Positions 7,888 through 25,033 of a DNA stretch of 31,432 nucleotides are shown here, in pieces. The stretch comes from a virus. A model generated the notes under the pieces. The model saw nothing but the letters and a program-made list of their open reading frames with translations, had not been told where the DNA came from and searched no databases. Numbering within the stretch: position 1 is the stretch's first letter; every line of letters begins with the position of its first letter. The position numbers and the translations under genes are program-made. The DNA is taken from positions 1 through 31,432 of IMG/VR virus record IMGVR_UViG_3300046734_000708. One strand, written 5' to 3'.

Positions 7888-8106
7888 ATGGCGTTTGCTC
7901 AGTGGTTGGTGCCATCAATAAGCTTAGAGAAACAGATCGAGGTAGAGCGTCATGCACGAGCCGTCTTAACCCAAGGCACGGAAAAAGAAATTAGAGAACT
8001 ATGCAGCCAACTCGTGAGAACCTTGGCCGAAAAAGAGCAAGCGATAAGTCAAGCCATTGGACACATCCTAGAGCTAGAAATAAAACTAGAAGATTTCAAT
8101 ATCTAA
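7888..8106 (+). CDS. Small conserved-type protein, 72 aa, unknown
   Basis: I prefer ATG 7888 over an upstream ATG at 7846 because a GAGG Shine-Dalgarno lies about 8 bp before it and the upstream extension looks unlike protein. The product begins MAFAQWLVPSISLEKQIEVE and is almost entirely helical and charged after residue 10. It has two helices (about 12-45 and 47-70), compatible with a small coiled-coil dimer. I have seen similar FAQWLVP-starting proteins in cyanophages and cyanobacteria but know no function. Its 3' end overlaps the convergent sigma factor gene by 11 bp. Confidence 0.65.
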   Translation: MAFAQWLVPSISLEKQIEVERHARAVLTQGTEKEIRELCSQLVRTLAEKEQAISQAIGHILELEIKLEDFNI

Positions 8107-8986
8107 TGTTCATTTGCTTTTTGATCTTTAGCAACGCCCTGTCTCTTTTTAGCCTGACAGCTTCTCTGCAACTATTTTTCTCTCTTGCGATCTGACTAAG
8201 CGTTTTTTCTTCATTGCCGCCGAGGCCGAAATAATCACGGAGAATAAATCTGCTTTCATCGTCAAGCTCTGACACAGCAAACAGCGCTTTCTCGACCTGC
8301 TCTTGAACTTCAACCTCAGACTCTAAAAAATTGCCGGCTCTAGGGTTTGAATCAGAAAAAGCATCGATAATAGAAACTTTTTGATCTCCTTCAAAAAAAA
8401 GCGGATCGTCTGACGATTTATGATGATATGACTGCGCCATTAACTGAAAATCACCCGGTTGTAAGCCTGTTAGCTCGGTGATCTGCTCAGTAGAAGGTGA
8501 ATGCCCGTGCTCAAAATGAAAATCTTTCAAAATCCTTTGTGCTTTTATGAATCTATTGAGCATTGAATCAGGGACGCGAATCATCCTGTCAGTTCCGTAT
8601 ATTGCACGGCTGATAGATTGCCGAATCCACCAATATGAATATGTGCTGAATTTATAGCCTCTTTCGGGATCAAACAGTTCTACCGCTCTACTCAACCCGA
8701 TTGCTCCTTCTTGCAGCAAATCAGAAAAAGTCAGGGTTTTTGGGTTTGCCTTGGCCAACATTTTCCTTGCAATACTTGCGGCAAGCTTCATATTACTTTT
8801 GATTAGCTTTTCTTTAGCCCTAAGGCCAGCCTTAATCTGTCGTTTCTGCAGGCCATCCAGTTGATCTTTAGGCAAGTCCTTAAGTTCAACGTATTTTTTC
8901 ACCTGCCTGCCTAGCTGAATTTCTTGGCTTGCGGTTAATAGCGGAAACCTAGACAGTTCGCTGAGGTAACGGGATTCGTCAGTCAT
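8096..8986 (-). CDS. Phage-encoded sigma-70 family RNA polymerase sigma factor
   Basis: A 296-residue protein using ATG 8986. Region 1.2 is at the start (YLSELSRFPLLTASQEIQLG). Region 2 follows at about residues 65-135: LIKSNMKLAASIARK, TFSDLLQEGAIGLSRAVELF and the 2.4-like stretch KFSTYSYWWIRQSISRAI. Region 3 (about 140-190) includes RVPDSM. Region 4, from about 230, has an HTH near LSQIAREKNSCREAVRL. This is the group 2/3 architecture typical of cyanobacterial primary-like sigma factors. It would redirect host RNA polymerase to phage promoters. A longer start at 9013 was rejected because those codons are the stem-loop of a terminator. There is no Shine-Dalgarno, which raises the question of how it is translated. 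Confidence 0.9.
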   Translation of the reverse strand: MTDESRYLSELSRFPLLTASQEIQLGRQVKKYVELKDLPKDQLDGLQKRQIKAGLRAKEKLIKSNMKLAASIARKMLAKANPKTLTFSDLLQEGAIGLSRAVELFDPERGYKFSTYSYWWIRQSISRAIYGTDRMIRVPDSMLNRFIKAQRILKDFHFEHGHSPSTEQITELTGLQPGDFQLMAQSYHHKSSDDPLFFEGDQKVSIIDAFSDSNPRAGNFLESEVEVQEQVEKALFAVSELDDESRFILRDYFGLGGNEEKTLSQIAREKNSCREAVRLKRDRALLKIKKQMNIRY

Positions 8987-8989
8987 GGC

Positions 8990-9011
8990 AAAAAAAAGGG
9001 GCCGAGGCCCC
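8990..9011 (-). terminator. Intrinsic terminator between SSB gene and sigma factor
   Basis: On the minus strand GGGGCCTCGGCCCC (9011-8998) is followed directly by eight T residues (8997-8990). It sits 9 bp after the SSB stop and ends 3 bp before the sigma factor ATG. It should end the leftward transcript coming from the recombination genes, so sigma factor mRNA depends on read-through. Confidence 0.85.
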
Positions 9012-9020
9012 ATCAGTTAA

Positions 9021-11259: not shown

Positions 11260-11870
11260 TAGTTTGTCTCCATCGGGGCTTCCTTGATGAGCTTCAGCAG
11301 AGTGTCTCGTTGTCTCCGTCGCGAAAGGATGGGGTCGCCGCCGGCGGCGGCGGCGGCGGCGGCGGACCAAGCGGCGTAGGCGGCGTTGGTGGCGGCGGCG
11401 GCGTCTTTGGCGTCGCAGGCGGCGTCGGCGGCGGCGGAAACGGGCCAGTAGGCGGGGTTGGTTACGGTAGCCTCAGGCCATTCCTTGCCTTCTCCTAATA
11501 AATCCATGCCTTCAATGACTGGGCCAATAACGGCTTGAATGTCATCAGGAACAGGCGGTAATGACCGCAGCTCTGCAGCAAGAAACTTCCAGCCGACTCG
11601 CGTCAAATCTTTTCCATCAGAACCAATAGCCTGAGGAATTGCAGCGAAGAACGCAGGTGCCTCATCCGCAGGTAACTCCTCAAAAATGGATTCGGCAATG
11701 CGGGTGACCATCAACGGGATCCCGTATTCGTTCTCAATAAATACAGGGTTGTTTATACCGTTGGCGAGACAGCCTATAAAACAGGTCTTGTAAGAGCCTT
11801 GCGCAACGCGATCAGCTTTAACGTGATCTGCTACTTCGGATTGAAGCTTCTGAAAGTTTTTAGTAATCAT
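11259..11870 (-). CDS. Hypothetical protein with alanine-rich C-terminal repeat region
   Basis: A 203-residue protein. Residues 1-140 look like a normal globular domain (TCFIGCLANGINNPVFIENE; later VGWKFLAAELRSLPPVP). Residues about 145-178 are an Ala-rich run with AYAAW and AYWPVSAAADAA units. A basic helix ends the protein (RQRDTLLKLIKEAP). Ala-rich repeats of this kind ending in a LLKLI-type helix occur in other phage hypothetical proteins. It is preceded by a good Shine-Dalgarno (AGGGGAA) and overlaps both neighbours by 1-4 bp. Confidence 0.6.
   Translation of the reverse strand: MITKNFQKLQSEVADHVKADRVAQGSYKTCFIGCLANGINNPVFIENEYGIPLMVTRIAESIFEELPADEAPAFFAAIPQAIGSDGKDLTRVGWKFLAAELRSLPPVPDDIQAVIGPVIEGMDLLGEGKEWPEATVTNPAYWPVSAAADAACDAKDAAAATNAAYAAWSAAAAAAAGGDPILSRRRQRDTLLKLIKEAPMETN
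11336..11437 (-). repeat. GC-rich trinucleotide (GCC/CGG) repeat tract
   Basis: About 100 bp dominated by GGC/GCC triplets on either strand, including an uninterrupted CGG run of about 8 units near 11343-11365. It encodes the Ala-rich part of the leftward 203-aa protein and is much richer in GC than its surroundings. It is in frame with the gene, so triplet gain or loss would not break the reading frame. Confidence 0.85.
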
Positions 11871-12076
11871 TGGTTGTTCCCCTTTTGTTGTTGTTGTCGA
11901 TGATCGTACAAGTCGTCAACCAACTTGCTCATCTCTAAATACCACTGGAAATTCACATCCCTGCCTGCGTCAATCAGCCTGCCAGCGGCTAACACAAGTT
12001 CATGCAACCTCTTGGTTTTCCAAATGTACTCTGGCTCGATTCCAATAGGCGGACGAGAGGGGTTGGATTCAGTCAT
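11867..12076 (-). CDS. Hypothetical protein, 69 aa
   Basis: Begins MTESNPSRPPIGIEPEYIWK and continues with a helical stretch (RLHELVLAAGRLIDAGRDVN, then QWYLEMSKLVDDLYDHR). The 'P.YIW...R...L..A...yid' pattern is familiar from small phage proteins, but I know no function. GGAG about 8 bp upstream supports the ATG at 12076. It overlaps the upstream gene by 8 bp and the downstream gene by 4 bp (ATGA). Confidence 0.6.
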   Translation of the reverse strand: MTESNPSRPPIGIEPEYIWKTKRLHELVLAAGRLIDAGRDVNFQWYLEMSKLVDDLYDHRQQQQKGNNQ

Positions 12077-12395
12077 TGTTGTTCTCCAGTTGGTTGATTA
12101 GTTTAAGAAGTTCTTCTTCACTAGCCCCATCAATCAGTCGTTCAAGTTTCTCTTTAGGTGTTTCAATAAACTTCCACCTACGATGGTTGATTTTGCCATA
12201 GATAGTCTCATAGACATTGCCACCCACAGCGCCATAGATATCGCCATTGATGTCGCCACTTACAGCGCCATAGATATCTCCATTGACATTGCCATAGATG
12301 TGGCCAAAGACAGAGCGGACTCTCCAGCCCAGGGCATCCCCGTGCTCAAAACTAACAAGCTTTAGGACTTCTTCAAGTGTGATTTGTTTGGTCAT
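12069..12395 (-). CDS. Tetrapeptide-repeat (G-x-I/V-x) protein, paralogue of the gene at 20597-20956
   Basis: A 108-residue protein in three parts: a helical head (1-24, TKQITLEEVLKLVSFEHG), about ten tandem four-residue repeats (31-70, e.g. GHIYGNVNGDIYGAVSGDIN) and a helical tail (RRWKFIETPKEKLERLIDGA, then EEELLKLINQLE). The G-x-[IV]-x period suggests a narrow beta-solenoid with Val/Ile stacked inside, as in bactofilin-type polymers, although the repeat is shorter. The head and tail match the rightward gene at 20597-20956. AGGAG lies about 8 bp upstream of the ATG. Function unknown; self-assembly is an inference. Confidence 0.7.
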   Translation of the reverse strand: MTKQITLEEVLKLVSFEHGDALGWRVRSVFGHIYGNVNGDIYGAVSGDINGDIYGAVGGNVYETIYGKINHRRWKFIETPKEKLERLIDGASEEELLKLINQLENNND

Positions 12396-14037: not shown

Positions 14038-14382
14038 TCAAGACCTCAGCGAATCAAACAGTTCGAGCTGCGTCCCTTCCGCAGCTTGGCCATGCATTGC
14101 GATTTGGCCTAAACGCACAACACGACGCTGTTTTTCATAAGCCGGCCGGGCAAAGCCAAGCTGATACAAATGCAGGTCGTTCTGTAATAACGCAACAGCT
14201 ACTGCTTTCCAAGATGGGGCTCGACCAGACGCTGCTACCTTTTTGGGCACCTCTTCAGGTATTTCGTCCAAATAGCAACGGCGCCTCCATTGCTGGCGAT
14301 ATTCGCGCACTCTGTCGGTAGCGCATTTCCCAGGACTGAATGGCTCGATTAGCTTGCTTGTTCGCCAAAATTTGTTGCTCAT
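14038..14382 (-). CDS. Small protein with IbrA C-terminal-like motif (last gene of the four-gene cassette)
   Basis: A 114-residue protein. The convincing part starts near residue 24 (RVREYRQQWRRRCYLDEIPE, then EVPKKVAASGRAPSWKAVAV and ALLQNDLHLYQLGF). The block PSWKAVAVALLQNDLHLYQL matches the C-terminal block of the PAPS-reductase-like protein encoded at 15584-16900 (TSWKRFAITVLKNDHTCKYL). This motif is known to me from DUF3440/IbrA proteins, so the gene looks like a stand-alone copy of that C-terminal module. Its start overlaps the 140-aa gene by 128 bp; a later start would shorten this. Role unknown; its linkage suggests it acts with the cassette. Confidence 0.65.
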   Translation of the reverse strand: MSNKFWRTSKLIEPFSPGKCATDRVREYRQQWRRRCYLDEIPEEVPKKVAASGRAPSWKAVAVALLQNDLHLYQLGFARPAYEKQRRVVRLGQIAMHGQAAEGTQLELFDSLRS

Positions 14383-14677
14383 TGCTTAAAAAGCTCCATG
14401 CGTGTCGTGTGATGTCTTCTGGGCAGCGCAGTGCCAAAGCGCAAGCTGCGTGACCAATCCATGCGCGACGGTTCAGGTTGTAGTCCGTCAGAGCATTGAC
14501 GCAGCTGTTGCGCCACTCCTCGGTAACACGTCTCATGTATCGCCCATACAGGCGATGATTGCCTGTAAAACAAATTGCACGCTGTAGGTAGAGGCGCCGA
14601 TTTGACACCTCCCCCCACATATTGAATCTGGTTTCTTCCCATGACTCAAACGGCAACCAAACTCTTGTCAGCTTCAT
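14255..14677 (-). CDS. Cassette protein, 140 aa, family seen with IbrA/IbrB-type genes
   Basis: Starts MKLTRVWLPFESWEETRFNM. Its core reads AICFTGNHRLYGRYMRRVTE, EWRNSCVNALTDYNLNRRAW and IGHAACALALRCPEDITRHA, a helical domain I recall from small phage proteins next to ParB/PAPS-reductase pairs; the cysteines are not arranged as a metal site. The last 40 or so residues are coded in the region shared with the next gene. It overlaps the ParB-fusion gene by 32 bp. Function unknown; conservation of 'FTG..LYG..M..V...W..SC..ALTD..LN..AW' would be a good search query. Confidence 0.65.
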   Translation of the reverse strand: MKLTRVWLPFESWEETRFNMWGEVSNRRLYLQRAICFTGNHRLYGRYMRRVTEEWRNSCVNALTDYNLNRRAWIGHAACALALRCPEDITRHAWSFLSNEQQILANKQANRAIQSWEMRYRQSARISPAMEAPLLFGRNT

Positions 14678-15587
14678 CGTCTAAATCCTCAGCAACTTCG
14701 TCGATCTGCTCTACATCCCAAGCTTTACTGAAGTCTTTACCCAAGAACAGAGAAGCCAAACCTGTGACCTGCTTTAACCGTAACAACTCATCAGGACTCA
14801 TCCCAATGTGCTTGCAAATCCAAGCGTCACCTTTACCCATTTCAATTAATTCAGCCACGATTACGCTCATAAGTTCGATGTTGTGTGAGCCCCGAGCGCG
14901 GTTGTGACGAATGGTTGATGCCATTCGGTCATGAAGCTCTTTACGCAAAACAACGACTGGCAGCCTGCCACCTTCTCGCTCGCGAATGCGATCGCTGTTC
15001 TTCAGAGTCAGATAGCGGTGAAAACCGTCAATGACTACATAAGCGTCGCGTTCTGCGTCATACACCACAACGACAGGCTGCGTGTAGCCGTCTTCCCAAA
15101 TCGATGTTTCGAGTAATGCCATCTCAGGTGGCGCAACAGAGTTGGGGTTGTAATCATTGGCGGTAACTTTCTCGATAGGAACACTGCGTACGGAGTAAAC
15201 CGGGGATCGCCAAGGGTATGAGTCGTTCTCGTCATGCAATTCATCTCCTTTTAGTGGTGGGTTAAAAACGCAGATCAACGTAGTTGGCTGAAAAGCTTCA
15301 AAAACGTGAGCATCGTGATTGTCCAGCACGTATGTCACGTCAGGGCCAATGGCATTGGTAACGCCAGTAGTCTCATTGGTTATTTCACCCGCACCGTTAA
15401 CGCAGTAGCAGGTTTCAAGGTGATGCTGATAGTGCCAGCGATGAGGCTTGCCAGGATGAACAATAGTTTTGGTCATGCTGTAACCCATGCCATCGCTTTC
15501 AGTGACTAAGCGATGGCTAGTAAACCCACCCTTGGGACATTGAACAACACGTTCAGATGGAAGCGCTGAAGAACTGAGGATTTTCAT
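14646..15587 (-). CDS. Ectoine synthase-like cupin fused to ParB/sulfiredoxin-like (IbrB-type) domain
   Basis: A 313-residue fusion. Residues 1-127 match ectoine synthase (EctC) along their length: SDGMGYSMTKTIVHPG (31-46), HHLETCYCVNGAGEI (55-69), VTYVLDNHDAH (84-94), CVFNPPLKGDELHDEN (106-121), then a YP at 124-125. The iron ligands of EctC (Glu57, Tyr85, His93) align with E58, Y86 and H94. Residues 130-260 are a ParB/Srx-like domain: VPIEKVTANDYNPN, then VIDGFHRY (185-192) in place of the GEHR box, and a long helical region with IRHNRARGSHN. The C-terminal 50 residues are helical and acidic. The gene has 4-bp ATGA overlap with the IbrA-like gene. EctC and ParB matches are seen in the sequence; the function of the fusion is unknown. 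Confidence 0.85.
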   Translation of the reverse strand: MKILSSSALPSERVVQCPKGGFTSHRLVTESDGMGYSMTKTIVHPGKPHRWHYQHHLETCYCVNGAGEITNETTGVTNAIGPDVTYVLDNHDAHVFEAFQPTTLICVFNPPLKGDELHDENDSYPWRSPVYSVRSVPIEKVTANDYNPNSVAPPEMALLETSIWEDGYTQPVVVVYDAERDAYVVIDGFHRYLTLKNSDRIREREGGRLPVVVLRKELHDRMASTIRHNRARGSHNIELMSVIVAELIEMGKGDAWICKHIGMSPDELLRLKQVTGLASLFLGKDFSKAWDVEQIDEVAEDLDDEADKSLVAV

Positions 15588-16900
15588 TTTTTGGATTGAT
15601 TAAGGACTTGGCTGTACTTGCGCTGAATGTTTTTTTGGCGGCGCTGCTGCTCTTGAGTAGGTGCTAGCCCTAAGTATTTGCAGGTGTGGTCATTCTTGAG
15701 AACGGTAATTGCAAACCGCTTCCATGAAGTCACCATGCTGTTATGACAAGGCAGCTTGTCAAGATGATCGGGCGGCACTTTGATTACGACGCGGCGAAGG
15801 TTGTTGCCGCCATGACGTGTTGTGCCGTTGATATAAAAACGGATGCCGATACGGTCTAGCGCTTCGATGATTTGATCTGGCAGTCCGCGCCCCACTCGCC
15901 CCCAGTAACGGATGGATTGAATGAAGCGCTGCTTAAAATTTGTGCTGGACTGTTCTGGCAGCGTTGCTAGCAAAAACTTGACGAATGATTTCCACGTATG
16001 CCCTTTAGGCAAACGGAATGATTTGTAGTCAAGCTGTTTGCCGTAGGTGGCCATGAAATTGGCGCCGCCAACTCTGGCGCATAGTCGCGCCCAGATCTGC
16101 GGATCAATGACGCGGTACATGGCCAGACTGGATTTGGATTCTGACATAAATGGCGATGCAACCCGCATTGTTTTGATGGGAATGCCTGCCATGTAAAACA
16201 AGTCGTACAGAGTGTTGTATTCCCATCCAAACTTTGCATTTGCTGTCCAGATGTCTTCTGTACGCCAATCGTAAACTGGGTAGCAGTTGTAGGTGTGATC
16301 TGTGTTTTTTTTGGTCCACATCTGACCATGCATCGTTTCCTTGGCTTGGTTAACGATGGCGCGAAACCGATTTAGTGATTCAACGGTACGAATACCAATC
16401 AAGTTGGCGCACGGTTGCCCTTGGCTGTACCATTCTGCAAACATGTCCCAGAACGTGGCGTAATCCATGTTTTCGATAAACAGATCGCCAAAAGGGTGGT
16501 TTCCAAGGTTGACGATGTAATCGTCGGTAGGCATGGGACGAATCCAACGGTGCCGATCAGCTTCACCCCAACACTGCCAATCAATCTCGTAAGAGCTGAC
16601 AGTACAAGGCAGGGTGATAGGCAGACAACACCAGTAGATGTCAAGAATGTCGCGGTTAGCGCGTAGGATCTTGTGCATAAACTCCTCGCTATGTGTGTAG
16701 TTGGCTTCGTTGTCCATAATCTGAACGCCAATTTTGACGTCAAGATTATGAGAACGAACGTAGTCAATAACGAGGTTTAGAAGTACTCCGCTGTCTTTGC
16801 CCCCAGAGAAAGAGACGTAGACACGTTTAAAGTGCTTGAAGATAAAGCCTAAGCGTTCAATAGAAGCGTCGTAAACATTGGTGTCTAGGTAGGTCCTCAT
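15584..16900 (-). CDS. IbrA-type PAPS reductase-like protein (DUF3440, adenine nucleotide alpha-hydrolase fold)
   Basis: A 438-residue protein. The N-terminus (RTYLDTNVYDASIERLGFIF) leads to the PP-loop SFSGGKDSG at residues 30-38, which binds ATP in PAPS reductase, ATP sulfurylase and tRNA-thiolation enzymes. Further features are MDNEANYTHSEEF, an IGIRTVESLNRFR segment (an LIGIRaeES-like box), YPVYDWRTEDIW, and a C-terminal DUF3440-like block TSWKRFAITVLKND. The length and C-terminal region are those of IbrA, not of CysH (about 240 aa), so a role in sulfate assimilation is unlikely. It is the first gene of the cassette; the next gene encodes an IbrB-type ParB domain, the known partner type. 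Activity in the phage is unknown. Confidence 0.85.
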   Translation of the reverse strand: MRTYLDTNVYDASIERLGFIFKHFKRVYVSFSGGKDSGVLLNLVIDYVRSHNLDVKIGVQIMDNEANYTHSEEFMHKILRANRDILDIYWCCLPITLPCTVSSYEIDWQCWGEADRHRWIRPMPTDDYIVNLGNHPFGDLFIENMDYATFWDMFAEWYSQGQPCANLIGIRTVESLNRFRAIVNQAKETMHGQMWTKKNTDHTYNCYPVYDWRTEDIWTANAKFGWEYNTLYDLFYMAGIPIKTMRVASPFMSESKSSLAMYRVIDPQIWARLCARVGGANFMATYGKQLDYKSFRLPKGHTWKSFVKFLLATLPEQSSTNFKQRFIQSIRYWGRVGRGLPDQIIEALDRIGIRFYINGTTRHGGNNLRRVVIKVPPDHLDKLPCHNSMVTSWKRFAITVLKNDHTCKYLGLAPTQEQQRRQKNIQRKYSQVLNQSKK

Positions 16901-20596: not shown

Positions 20597-20956
20597 ATGA
20601 CTAATCAGATCACACGCGACGAACTCCTTGATCTCATCTTCGTTGAAAAAGGGGTAGACGGCGGTTGGTTCATCTCAGGCGTTAAAACCGACATCTACGG
20701 CAAAGTTCAGGGCGACGTTTACGGCGATATTGGTGGCAATGTTTTTGGCAACATTGAGGACTCCGTTATTGGCGACGTTGGTGGCAACGTTACTGGCGAT
20801 GTTCGTGGCAACGTTTTTGGCGACGTTGATGGGACAATTAACGGTCGCGAATGGTATTTCGCTGAAACTCCCACGGAAAAGCTTCAGCGATTGGTTACAG
20901 AAGGCGCTACCAAAGAAGAGCTTCTCTTAGCGATTGACCAACTGGAGGACAGCTAA
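20597..20956 (+). CDS. Tetrapeptide-repeat (G-x-I/V-x) protein, paralogue of the gene at 12069-12395
   Basis: A 119-residue protein with the same three-part layout as its leftward paralogue: helical head (TNQITRDELLDLIFVEKG), 13 or so four-residue repeats (31-83, e.g. GKVQGDVYGDIGGNVFGNIE) and helical tail (REWYFAETPTEKLQRLVTEG, then ATKEELLLAIDQLED). The repeat DNA is built of degenerate 12-bp units GGCAACGTT/GGCGACGTT. One repeat deviates (EDSVIG). The head and tail align with the paralogue, so duplication within the phage or separate acquisition of family members is likely. A structural or assembly role is possible but not shown. Confidence 0.7.
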   Translation: MTNQITRDELLDLIFVEKGVDGGWFISGVKTDIYGKVQGDVYGDIGGNVFGNIEDSVIGDVGGNVTGDVRGNVFGDVDGTINGREWYFAETPTEKLQRLVTEGATKEELLLAIDQLEDS

Positions 20957-23314: not shown

Positions 23315-25033
23315 ATGGCTAAGCGCGGCGGTAGGTCTGGCAGAAAGTACGTTCGCGACTCCATTGGGCGGTTTGCTACGACTGGCGCCACTGCTCGCGG
23401 TGGCAGGCTGAAAACTAAAAGTGGGAAGAAACGGGCAACTCAAACGGTAAAAGCAAAGACCGGCGGTAAGCCTGCAGGTGCCATCAAGGGGAAGATCAAG
23501 CGGGATCCTGGCGCAGCGAAGCCAGCAGCACGCTCGAAGCCGACAGTCGCCCGGACCAGCAAGGCGCCAACCAATAAGGCAAAAGTTGCTTACAAGCGTG
23601 CCAGCGAAGACGCTCGAAGCAGAAATGCAGATCTAAGAGGCGCAGACGTTAACGAACGGCGGATGGCCAATAGCGCGTCAGCCAAGCTCAAGAATATGCA
23701 GCGCCGGAGATCAGCCTCAACGCCTAAGGCAGGCGCAGACGCTCCACGCAGCAAGCAAAAGGCAAGGGAGCTTGCACGGGTCAAAAGGGCTATCAGCAAC
23801 GAAAGGAAAGCCTATGCCGCTAGGGGTGACGGGGCCGGCAGTGCGAAACAATCCCGCAGCGCGTCTGTTGCGAAGAGGGCTAAAGACATTTACAGCGGAA
23901 AAATCAGCGCTTCGTATAAGACAACTTCACGGCTAACACGGACACAAAACCCTGATGTCTTGAGGGCGAGGATCAAGAAAGGCGAGAAGCTCACGGCAGC
24001 ACGCGCCAAAAAAAAAAGCGTAACGGCCAATAGCGCACGGGCAGCAGCGAAGCCAGCAGCAGCGAAGACAGCAGGACGATCAAAGACTGATTTGCAGCGA
24101 ATGCAGCAAGCAGACAGGATCATGGGCAAGCTTGCCAAGCGGCAAAAGGCTGTTGTTGATAAGGCGCCAAGCTTGAACGAAGGGTTGAAACAGATTCGTC
24201 GCAATAATGCACGGGCAGGGCGCGTCAATCAATCGTTGGCATCGAAAGGTTTGCTTGGCAAATACAACCGGCTTACTGCGCCTGCTGATCCAATTAGGAT
24301 GACTCCAGCGGGAAAAGGAATACCAAAAACCCCGAGACGCGCCAAAAAAAGCGTAACGGCCAATGGCGGGAGGTTGACGAAAGGAGCACGGGGCCAAGAT
24401 CCAGCAACTGGCGGGAAGAAGAGCAGGGCGAAACCAGCAGCAGCGAAGCCAGCAGCAGCGAAGCGCCGGAAGGCAATACCTAAAGACGGGACAGACTTCA
24501 CCCGCGAGATTGGCCGGGCGAAGGGGAATAAACGAATCAAGAACTTGAACCAGCAAATCAAAGAGGCCGGACCAAATGCCGCAGGACTCAGGCTGGAAAA
24601 ACTAAAGGTTCAGACCCGAATGCCCAACAAGCCGAGGCAAAGAATGCAACCGACGGCCAAGCAGTTGGCGAAGGAGGCTAGCCGTAATGATGCAATCCGC
24701 AGGCGTTCAGCCGAGCTGAGGGCTCAATCTGGGCGCTTACAACGCAACCAGGCAAACATCCAACGGCTAAAAAACCAAAGCCCTAAGCCTGGGAGCCGCA
24801 GGTTGTCTCCCTCGCAGATCAGCAGGACACTTCGCGCAGACACCGCAAAAGATATTTATTCAGCACCATCCACAAAAAGGCGAGCGCAGATCGTTAGGAA
24901 TCAAGCAGGCATCGCCAGAACAGAACGGGCAAAAAACAACTCCATGAGGCTTCGATCTGATCGATTGGCAGAAGCCAAAGCAACAGGATTGCCGATGATC
25001 AAGGTCACTAAGCCCAAGCGACGCAGGAGCTGA
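23315..25033 (+). CDS. Highly basic, Lys/Arg/Ala-rich protein of the packaging-head region
   Basis: A 572-residue protein that is low in hydrophobic residues and rich in Lys, Arg, Ala and Ser throughout. The N-terminus KYVRDSIGRFATTGATARGG is a motif I recall from other phage proteins near terminase or portal genes. The rest has recurring units such as KPAAAK, KKSVTANSARAAAKPAAAK and TAKDIYS/AKDIYSGK that recall histone H1 tails. Two copies of AKKSVTAN and two of KDIYS show internal duplication. It lies between terminase and portal. A DNA-binding, internal virion or condensing role is plausible; no enzymatic motif is present. Confidence 0.6.
   Translation: MAKRGGRSGRKYVRDSIGRFATTGATARGGRLKTKSGKKRATQTVKAKTGGKPAGAIKGKIKRDPGAAKPAARSKPTVARTSKAPTNKAKVAYKRASEDARSRNADLRGADVNERRMANSASAKLKNMQRRRSASTPKAGADAPRSKQKARELARVKRAISNERKAYAARGDGAGSAKQSRSASVAKRAKDIYSGKISASYKTTSRLTRTQNPDVLRARIKKGEKLTAARAKKKSVTANSARAAAKPAAAKTAGRSKTDLQRMQQADRIMGKLAKRQKAVVDKAPSLNEGLKQIRRNNARAGRVNQSLASKGLLGKYNRLTAPADPIRMTPAGKGIPKTPRRAKKSVTANGGRLTKGARGQDPATGGKKSRAKPAAAKPAAAKRRKAIPKDGTDFTREIGRAKGNKRIKNLNQQIKEAGPNAAGLRLEKLKVQTRMPNKPRQRMQPTAKQLAKEASRNDAIRRRSAELRAQSGRLQRNQANIQRLKNQSPKPGSRRLSPSQISRTLRADTAKDIYSAPSTKRRAQIVRNQAGIARTERAKNNSMRLRSDRLAEAKATGLPMIKVTKPKRRRS

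Follow-up and report, generated by a model that had tools for sequence, protein, structure and literature searches.

An ectoine synthase-type cupin fused to IbrB in a widespread phage module of IbrA, EctC, IbrB and two further proteins

Introduction

Pairs of IbrA and IbrB occur in phages, plasmids and bacteria. The literature describes the two proteins as co-activators of prophage gene expression, and our search of it found no chemistry assigned to them. The same IbrA and IbrB core is present in Streptococcus phage CHPC1230, in E. coli as YbdN/YbdM, and in others (PMC9068703). Compared with the locus described here, modules of this sort have no EctC, mostly lack the two small proteins that we call X and Y, and often have a GNAT-like partner.

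The closest systems are annotated phage genomes. Mycobacterium phage Gaia (KJ567043, gp103-gp107) and phage Nebkiss encode a PAPS-reductase-like protein, an EctC-IbrB fusion, X and Y, arranged as in our locus; Gaia differs in having an extra gene, gp105, between the fusion and X, and is known from annotation, no study of it having been found. Pseudoalteromonas phage XCL1123 (MN313256) shares the IbrA, EctC, IbrB, X and Y cassette, with EctC (130 aa) and IbrB (183 aa) as two overlapping open reading frames. The GenBank records of Gaia (gp104) and XCL1123 already carry the name “ectoine synthase/ParB multidomain protein”, and a literature search whose coverage excluded subscription papers and preprints found no paper on an EctC-ParB fusion.

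In the EctC reaction, an N-acyl diamino acid loses water and closes into a ring. In EctC of P. lautus, the iron ligands are E57, Y84 and H92, the substrate is contacted by W21, R25, N38, T40, Y52 and E57, and the product by S23, N38, Y52, E57 and F106 (PMC6344544). Trp21 is fully conserved in 437 EctC proteins from ect clusters, and its alanine variant in the P. lautus enzyme has 9.7% activity (PMC6344544).

Two further systems offer points of comparison. In phage DNA hypermodification by CmoX/CmoY, the AMP-forming ligase is a homologue of asparagine synthetase, and ParBc proteins are found close to it; an AMP-forming ligase alongside ParBc proteins in phage modification loci is what it has in common with our cassette, whereas its ligase belongs to another family and no cupin is mentioned for it (PMC12783734). 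DndB has been described as a protein of the ParB superfamily (PMC12839542).

Here, we examine a viral window, by which we mean the whole analysed stretch of 31,432 nucleotides (IMG/VR record IMGVR_UViG_3300046734_000708), which is of phage origin, as its genes for terminase, portal and major head protein confirm. An earlier, sequence-only reading had proposed that it encodes an EctC-like cupin joined to a ParB/sulfiredoxin-like domain.

Results and discussion

The fusion gene occupies 14646-15587 on the minus strand, exactly as read from the sequence, encodes 313 aa and has a start that overlaps the IbrA stop by 4 nt; the same architecture is found in 73 distinct loci. Its EctC-type cupin domain comprises residues 1-126 (15210-15587, minus strand), of which residues 11-126 match the Pfam family Ectoine_synth (PF06339) at 5.2e-38 and 130.6 bits against a cut-off of 27. 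The NCBIfam ectoine synthase model scores the fusion at 135.4 bits, above its cut-off of 128, and the best matches in a PDB sequence search are EctC crystal structures (6e-24). The remaining residues, 127-313 (14649-15209, minus strand), form an IbrB-type ParB/Srx domain, which in a PHROG search matches the ParB-like phrog_2159 (2e-78). Pfam ParB_N reaches 2e-4 and 21.8 bits in this half, below the cut-off of 26.3 that a partition ParB would be expected to pass. Assignment to IbrB is given instead by the phrog_2159 profile, by the motifs DGFHR and RHNRARG, and by the adjacent IbrA. The sequence-only reading had pointed to FHR in place of the usual GEHR; this is in fact the IbrB norm, as DGFHR or DGYHR is present in 215 of 216 IbrA-IbrB loci and RHNxARG in 214. 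A profile of IbrB proteins without EctC, searched against PDB sequences, found Noc (2e-6) and, more weakly, SbnI/free serine kinase (0.003-0.006).

Structural comparison leads in the same direction. The AlphaFold model of the fusion, built on an alignment of 21 close sequences, has low confidence (pLDDT 59). Using this model, the eight top Foldseek matches are EctC chains (best 8e-10) and the second half leads to Noc, while VIA-align places EctC 5bxx at Z 11.3 over 96 residues (rmsd 5.0). Profile and fold searches thus both rank EctC first for the N-terminal half, within the limits of a model at pLDDT 59, and the placement in an unrelated cupin family that would have spoken against the sequence-only reading did not occur. 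For the IbrB half of the same low-confidence model, VIA-align gives Z 10.5 with CDP-bound ParB (7bnk) and Z 8.7 with sulfiredoxin, in agreement with the ParB/sulfiredoxin-like assignment made earlier; as modelled, IbrB resembles ParB in fold and has a tail of helix-turn-helix-like appearance.

Upstream of the fusion lies IbrA (15584-16900, minus strand), a PP-loop ATP-pyrophosphatase of 438 aa that combines the Pfam families PAPS_reduct (2e-8) and DUF3440 (3e-54) and matches phrog_2302 at 4e-107. The PP-loop is present in 201 of 204 aligned IbrA proteins but the ECGxH motif of PAPS reductase (CysH) in none of the 204, and “PAPS reductase” is therefore a misleading name. Cysteines C92 and C407 are common to nearly all IbrA. 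A further four, C91, C99, C110 and C274, are conserved at 98-100% in the EctC type and at 21%, 25%, 9% and 0%, respectively, in the others; judged from this pattern, an Fe-S cluster in EctC-type IbrA is possible.

Downstream, protein X (14255-14677, minus strand) is a protein of 140 aa, confidently predicted to be all-helical (AF2 pLDDT 91) and found in 92 of 95 EctC loci and in 15 of 121 IbrAB loci without EctC. It has no Pfam, PHROG or PADLOC family and no PDB sequence match, and a fold search gave no confident PDB match, the best VIA Z of 3.8 being meaningless for a helical protein. Its one BFVD match, 64% identical, is probably the XCL1123 protein. Within the annotated phage collection, X is confined to Gaia, Nebkiss, XCL1123 and Pseudomonas phage Amjad_SA; Microcystis phage Mwe-JY13 has a more diverged X. 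Protein Y (14038-14382, minus strand; 114 aa), present in 89 of 95 EctC loci, resembles the C-terminal part of DUF3440/IbrA (DUF3440 0.002), and its relatives in other EctC phages exceed the DUF3440 cut-off, up to 1e-9. The Y frame overlaps the end of X by 128 nt (14255-14382, in another frame). This overlap is shorter in loci L092 (53 nt) and L118 (38 nt) and in Gaia (14 nt), and the annotated Y start may therefore be too early.

The fusion is not unique to this window. Full-length relatives were found by tblastn in Gaia and Nebkiss (66.8% identity) and in XCL1123, and 227 stretches of viral contigs encode relatives, among the best 80 of which independent contigs extend down to 64-65% identity. 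Many independent loci and viral contigs at such distances rule out a chance fusion or an assembly artefact. The fusion query also matches 219 phage and 761 plasmid records, mostly through the IbrB half. IbrB elsewhere (Streptococcus, Flavobacterium and Lactobacillus phages, enterobacterial plasmids) mostly aligns only from residue ~116-130 onwards, and these proteins therefore have no cupin. One apparent phage-collection member, the EctC of MT835761, was set aside, being part of an ordinary ectB-ectC pair on a bacterial-looking scaffold.

The EctC cupin is thus part of a widespread four- or five-part phage module of IbrA, EctC, IbrB, X and Y; each of the 83 loci of the first round has this set if its contig extends far enough. 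EctC occurs in 95 of 216 distinct IbrA-IbrB loci, fused to IbrB in 73 and as a separate gene in 22. A search for other EctC-ParB fusions together with their neighbours had been suggested by the sequence-only reading, and the 73 fused loci, with their conserved IbrA, X and Y neighbours, are its outcome. Four gene orders were seen (IbrA-EctC-IbrB-X-Y, IbrA-EctC-X-Y-IbrB, X-Y-IbrA-EctC-IbrB and IbrB-X-Y-IbrA-EctC), and in all four EctC directly follows IbrA; its start lies no more than ~15 nt from the IbrA stop in 92 of the 95 loci tabulated, and also in the window itself, with its 4-nt overlap on the minus strand. This constancy across gene orders indicates that EctC is linked first to IbrA. Split EctC and IbrB genes occur in L091 and L092, which are bins assigned to Planctomycetota and to a Saprospiraceae bacterium, and in many divergent viral loci. 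In an EctC tree of few columns the deepest phage branches are split, with three changes between the fused and split states, and the fusion to IbrB is therefore, as far as so short an alignment tells, a secondary arrangement. The two-domain fusion recognised earlier is real, then, but the primary tie of EctC is to IbrA; the sequence-only reading had overlooked the surrounding cassette and the accessory place, which other proteins can fill.

We compared the cupin active site with cellular EctC in an alignment of 134 phage EctC domains (103 distinct) and 47 cellular EctC, using P. lautus numbering. All three iron ligands are retained, as had been claimed for this protein: E58, Y86 and H94 of the fusion align with E57, Y84 and H92, which are invariant in all 134 phage domains, as are S23, R25, T40, Y52, E114 and H116. 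Trp21 is found in none of the 134 (Phe in 108, a gap in 25, Met in one; Phe22 in the fusion), as opposed to 43 of 47 cellular EctC, a loss that the sequence-only reading had passed over. Position 59 is Cys in 134 of 134 phage domains and in 5 of 47 cellular ones, and position 61 is Cys in 134 of 134 phage domains; these are C60 and C62 in the fusion. Residues 57, 59 and 61, which alternate on one strand, probably all face the barrel. N38 is variable in cellular EctC as well (mostly His) and is therefore little informative. In a tree, phage EctC forms a single clade separate from 44 cellular EctC (SH-aLRT 99). The phage type thus has the cupin fold, the iron ligands and most substrate-contacting residues in common with EctC of P. 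lautus and S. alaskensis, and differs by the loss of Trp21, the extra invariant Cys59, the lack of ectAB and the linkage to IbrAB. Probably, EctC chemistry has been kept and the substrate has changed. Orphan cellular EctC-like proteins have Cys59 and a displaced Trp in common with the phage type (PMC6344544), but group with cellular EctC in the tree, outside the phage clade. L440-L443 are orphan-like cellular EctC of this kind and show both features.

Loci without EctC often carry another gene in the accessory place. Of the 121 EctC-less loci, 47 have a GNAT-like protein of ~135 aa before or after IbrA, whereas the 95 EctC loci have none. Acetyltransf_1 is matched above its cut-off by some members (3e-7) and weakly or not at all by most, so that part of the family is named GNAT only through profile similarity. 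The gene between IbrA and IbrB in L256, L266 and L286 encodes a methyltransferase-like protein (Methyltransf_12, 7e-6 to 1e-2, under the cut-off). The occurrence of EctC, an acetyltransferase or a methyltransferase-like protein in the same place suggests that these phages tailor a product yet to be discovered. We considered and rejected repeated independent replacement as the source of the exclusivity of EctC and GNAT, as the EctC type has one origin in the IbrA tree, where EctC-bearing IbrA form one clade (SH-aLRT 100) and the GNAT label needs ten changes. With a single origin, the Fisher value of 1e-14 for this exclusivity is therefore no valid probability. The trees indicate that EctC was acquired once and kept, and that GNAT came and went.

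Among the GNAT-like companions, those before IbrA or between IbrA and IbrB include L249, L290, L298, L115, L118, L260 and L278, together with ~35 Bacteroidales-type loci, and several companions of IbrAB have no obvious CoA-binding motif. SNF2-type helicases adjoin IbrAB modules in L088, L115, L159 and others, and the helicase of L159 carries a fused GNAT-like domain.

We propose, with a probability of roughly 0.45, that the fused cupin is a metal-dependent tailoring enzyme within a phage IbrA-EctC-IbrB-X-Y pathway, probably one of nucleic-acid or nucleotide modification. IbrA, as a PP-loop ATP-pyrophosphatase, and IbrB, as a nucleotide-binding ParB/Srx protein, would form the core that activates and targets the substrate: IbrA would activate with ATP, and IbrB would bind a nucleotide, perhaps DNA as well. 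An exchangeable tailoring enzyme, encoded in the accessory place, would act on the IbrA/IbrB product. As such an enzyme, the cupin would depend on iron and, like EctC, would close an acyl-diamino unit into a ring with loss of water, or catalyse the reverse reaction; its substrate would differ from N-acetyl-diaminobutyrate and would probably be a group on a nucleobase or nucleotide. By its fusion to IbrB, the cupin would be kept at the spot where the product of IbrA/IbrB arises, and X and Y would serve as assembly or targeting subunits. The closest precedent for such a route is the CmoX/CmoY hypermodification of phage DNA (PMC12783734). The suggestion made from the sequence, that this may be a novel kind of enzyme for nucleic-acid modification or for signalling, is reasonable as an inference.

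Three observations weigh against the tailoring proposal. IbrA and IbrB have been described as prophage co-activators, not as modification enzymes. The C5-methyltransferase domain PF00145 is above its cut-off in 4 of 23 records and absent from the complete Gaia and XCL1123 genomes; the exact CmoX route is therefore excluded in these two phages, where its handle is unavailable, and we rejected a CmoX-type carboxymethylcytosine handle as a general requirement. Finally, with EctC-bearing IbrA forming one clade, there are not many independent events behind the exclusivity with GNAT. If the proposal is true, phages have recruited an osmolyte enzyme as a tailoring enzyme. The EctC variant places an active site of known reaction type inside IbrAB and so gives the best handle on the role of the core, as the reaction narrows the possible substrates to an acyl-diamino unit or a cyclic amidine; Gaia infects M. 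smegmatis, which opens the cassette to direct testing. A bolder and doubtful extension is that IbrAB is an unrecognised phage nucleic-acid modification core, for which EctC cupin, GNAT and methyltransferase would be interchangeable tailoring enzymes. Its EctC type would attach a ring-closed, ectoine-like group or another cupin product to a base or nucleotide, and the IbrA of this type might bear an iron-sulphur cluster.

Cupins can act as sensor domains, and the cupin may instead have kept its metal and pocket for binding a small molecule, such as ectoine or a host metabolite, and thereby switch IbrB, which together with IbrA would regulate phage or prophage transcription. The description of IbrA/IbrB as co-activators fits such a role, as does the helix-turn-helix-like tail predicted for IbrB. 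However, a sensor would not need the full iron triad and E114/H116 to be as strictly conserved as they are across 134 sequences, the separate EctC gene behind IbrA in 22 of 95 loci makes covalent contact with IbrB dispensable, and the proteins that can replace EctC in its place are enzymes (GNAT, methyltransferase-like), which leaves a sensor unlikely.

We judge it similarly improbable that the cassette works on a soluble metabolite, made or broken down for signalling or against the host, and has no action on nucleic acids. In the known ectoine pathway both EctC and GNAT handle small amino compounds, and the ParB/Srx superfamily includes the free serine kinases SbnI and SerK, weakly matched by the IbrB profile; nevertheless, IbrB is closer to ParB/Noc than to these kinases, and in phages the modules sit among DNA-processing genes.

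Counter-defence or exclusion by a Dnd/BREX-like logic, in which a PP-loop protein works with a ParB-like protein and the cupin is a minor accessory, would accord with the ParB-superfamily membership of DndB (PMC12839542) and with the weak similarity of IbrA to the DndC and BrxP models of PADLOC. Yet PADLOC gives no match for the fusion, X or Y, and the NCBIfam DndC model scores IbrA at 18.8 bits against a cut-off of 290.4. We rejected a known defence system, for which PADLOC offers nothing beyond this weak likeness, and consider the counter-defence reading very improbable.

Least probable of all is a true ectoine synthase, an auxiliary metabolic gene using host-made N-acetyl-diaminobutyrate, for which the strong family match and conserved iron site speak, but which leaves the coupling with IbrA, IbrB, X and Y unexplained and lacks, in all 134 phage domains, the Trp21 that the P. 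lautus enzyme needs (PMC6344544). Neither EctA (TIGR02406) nor a class-III aminotransferase of the EctB type (Aminotran_3) was found in 17 EctC-carrying virus records, namely the window, for which the absence of ectA and ectB had been noted before, and 16 others that include the complete genomes of Gaia and XCL1123. Three bacterial bins carrying phage-type EctC yielded no second EctC, which also counts against this reading. Ectoine synthesis is thus unlikely because Trp21 is always lost and ectA and ectB are absent from the 17 virus records, and the earlier view that an osmolyte role is improbable holds on the same grounds.

Other features of the window

Elsewhere in the window, a sigma-70-type RNA polymerase sigma factor is encoded at 8096-9013 on the minus strand (phrog_351, 2e-57). 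Between the terminase and portal genes, 23315-25033 (plus strand) encodes a 572-aa protein that is very rich in Lys, Arg and Ala and has no PHROG match. A pair of related proteins (108 and 119 aa), alike at their ends and bearing GDI/GDV/GNV repeats, is encoded on opposite strands at 12069-12395 (minus) and 20597-20956 (plus). A low-complexity stretch at 11310-11498 would, according to the frame and strand read, give poly-Arg/poly-Gly or Ala-rich peptides.
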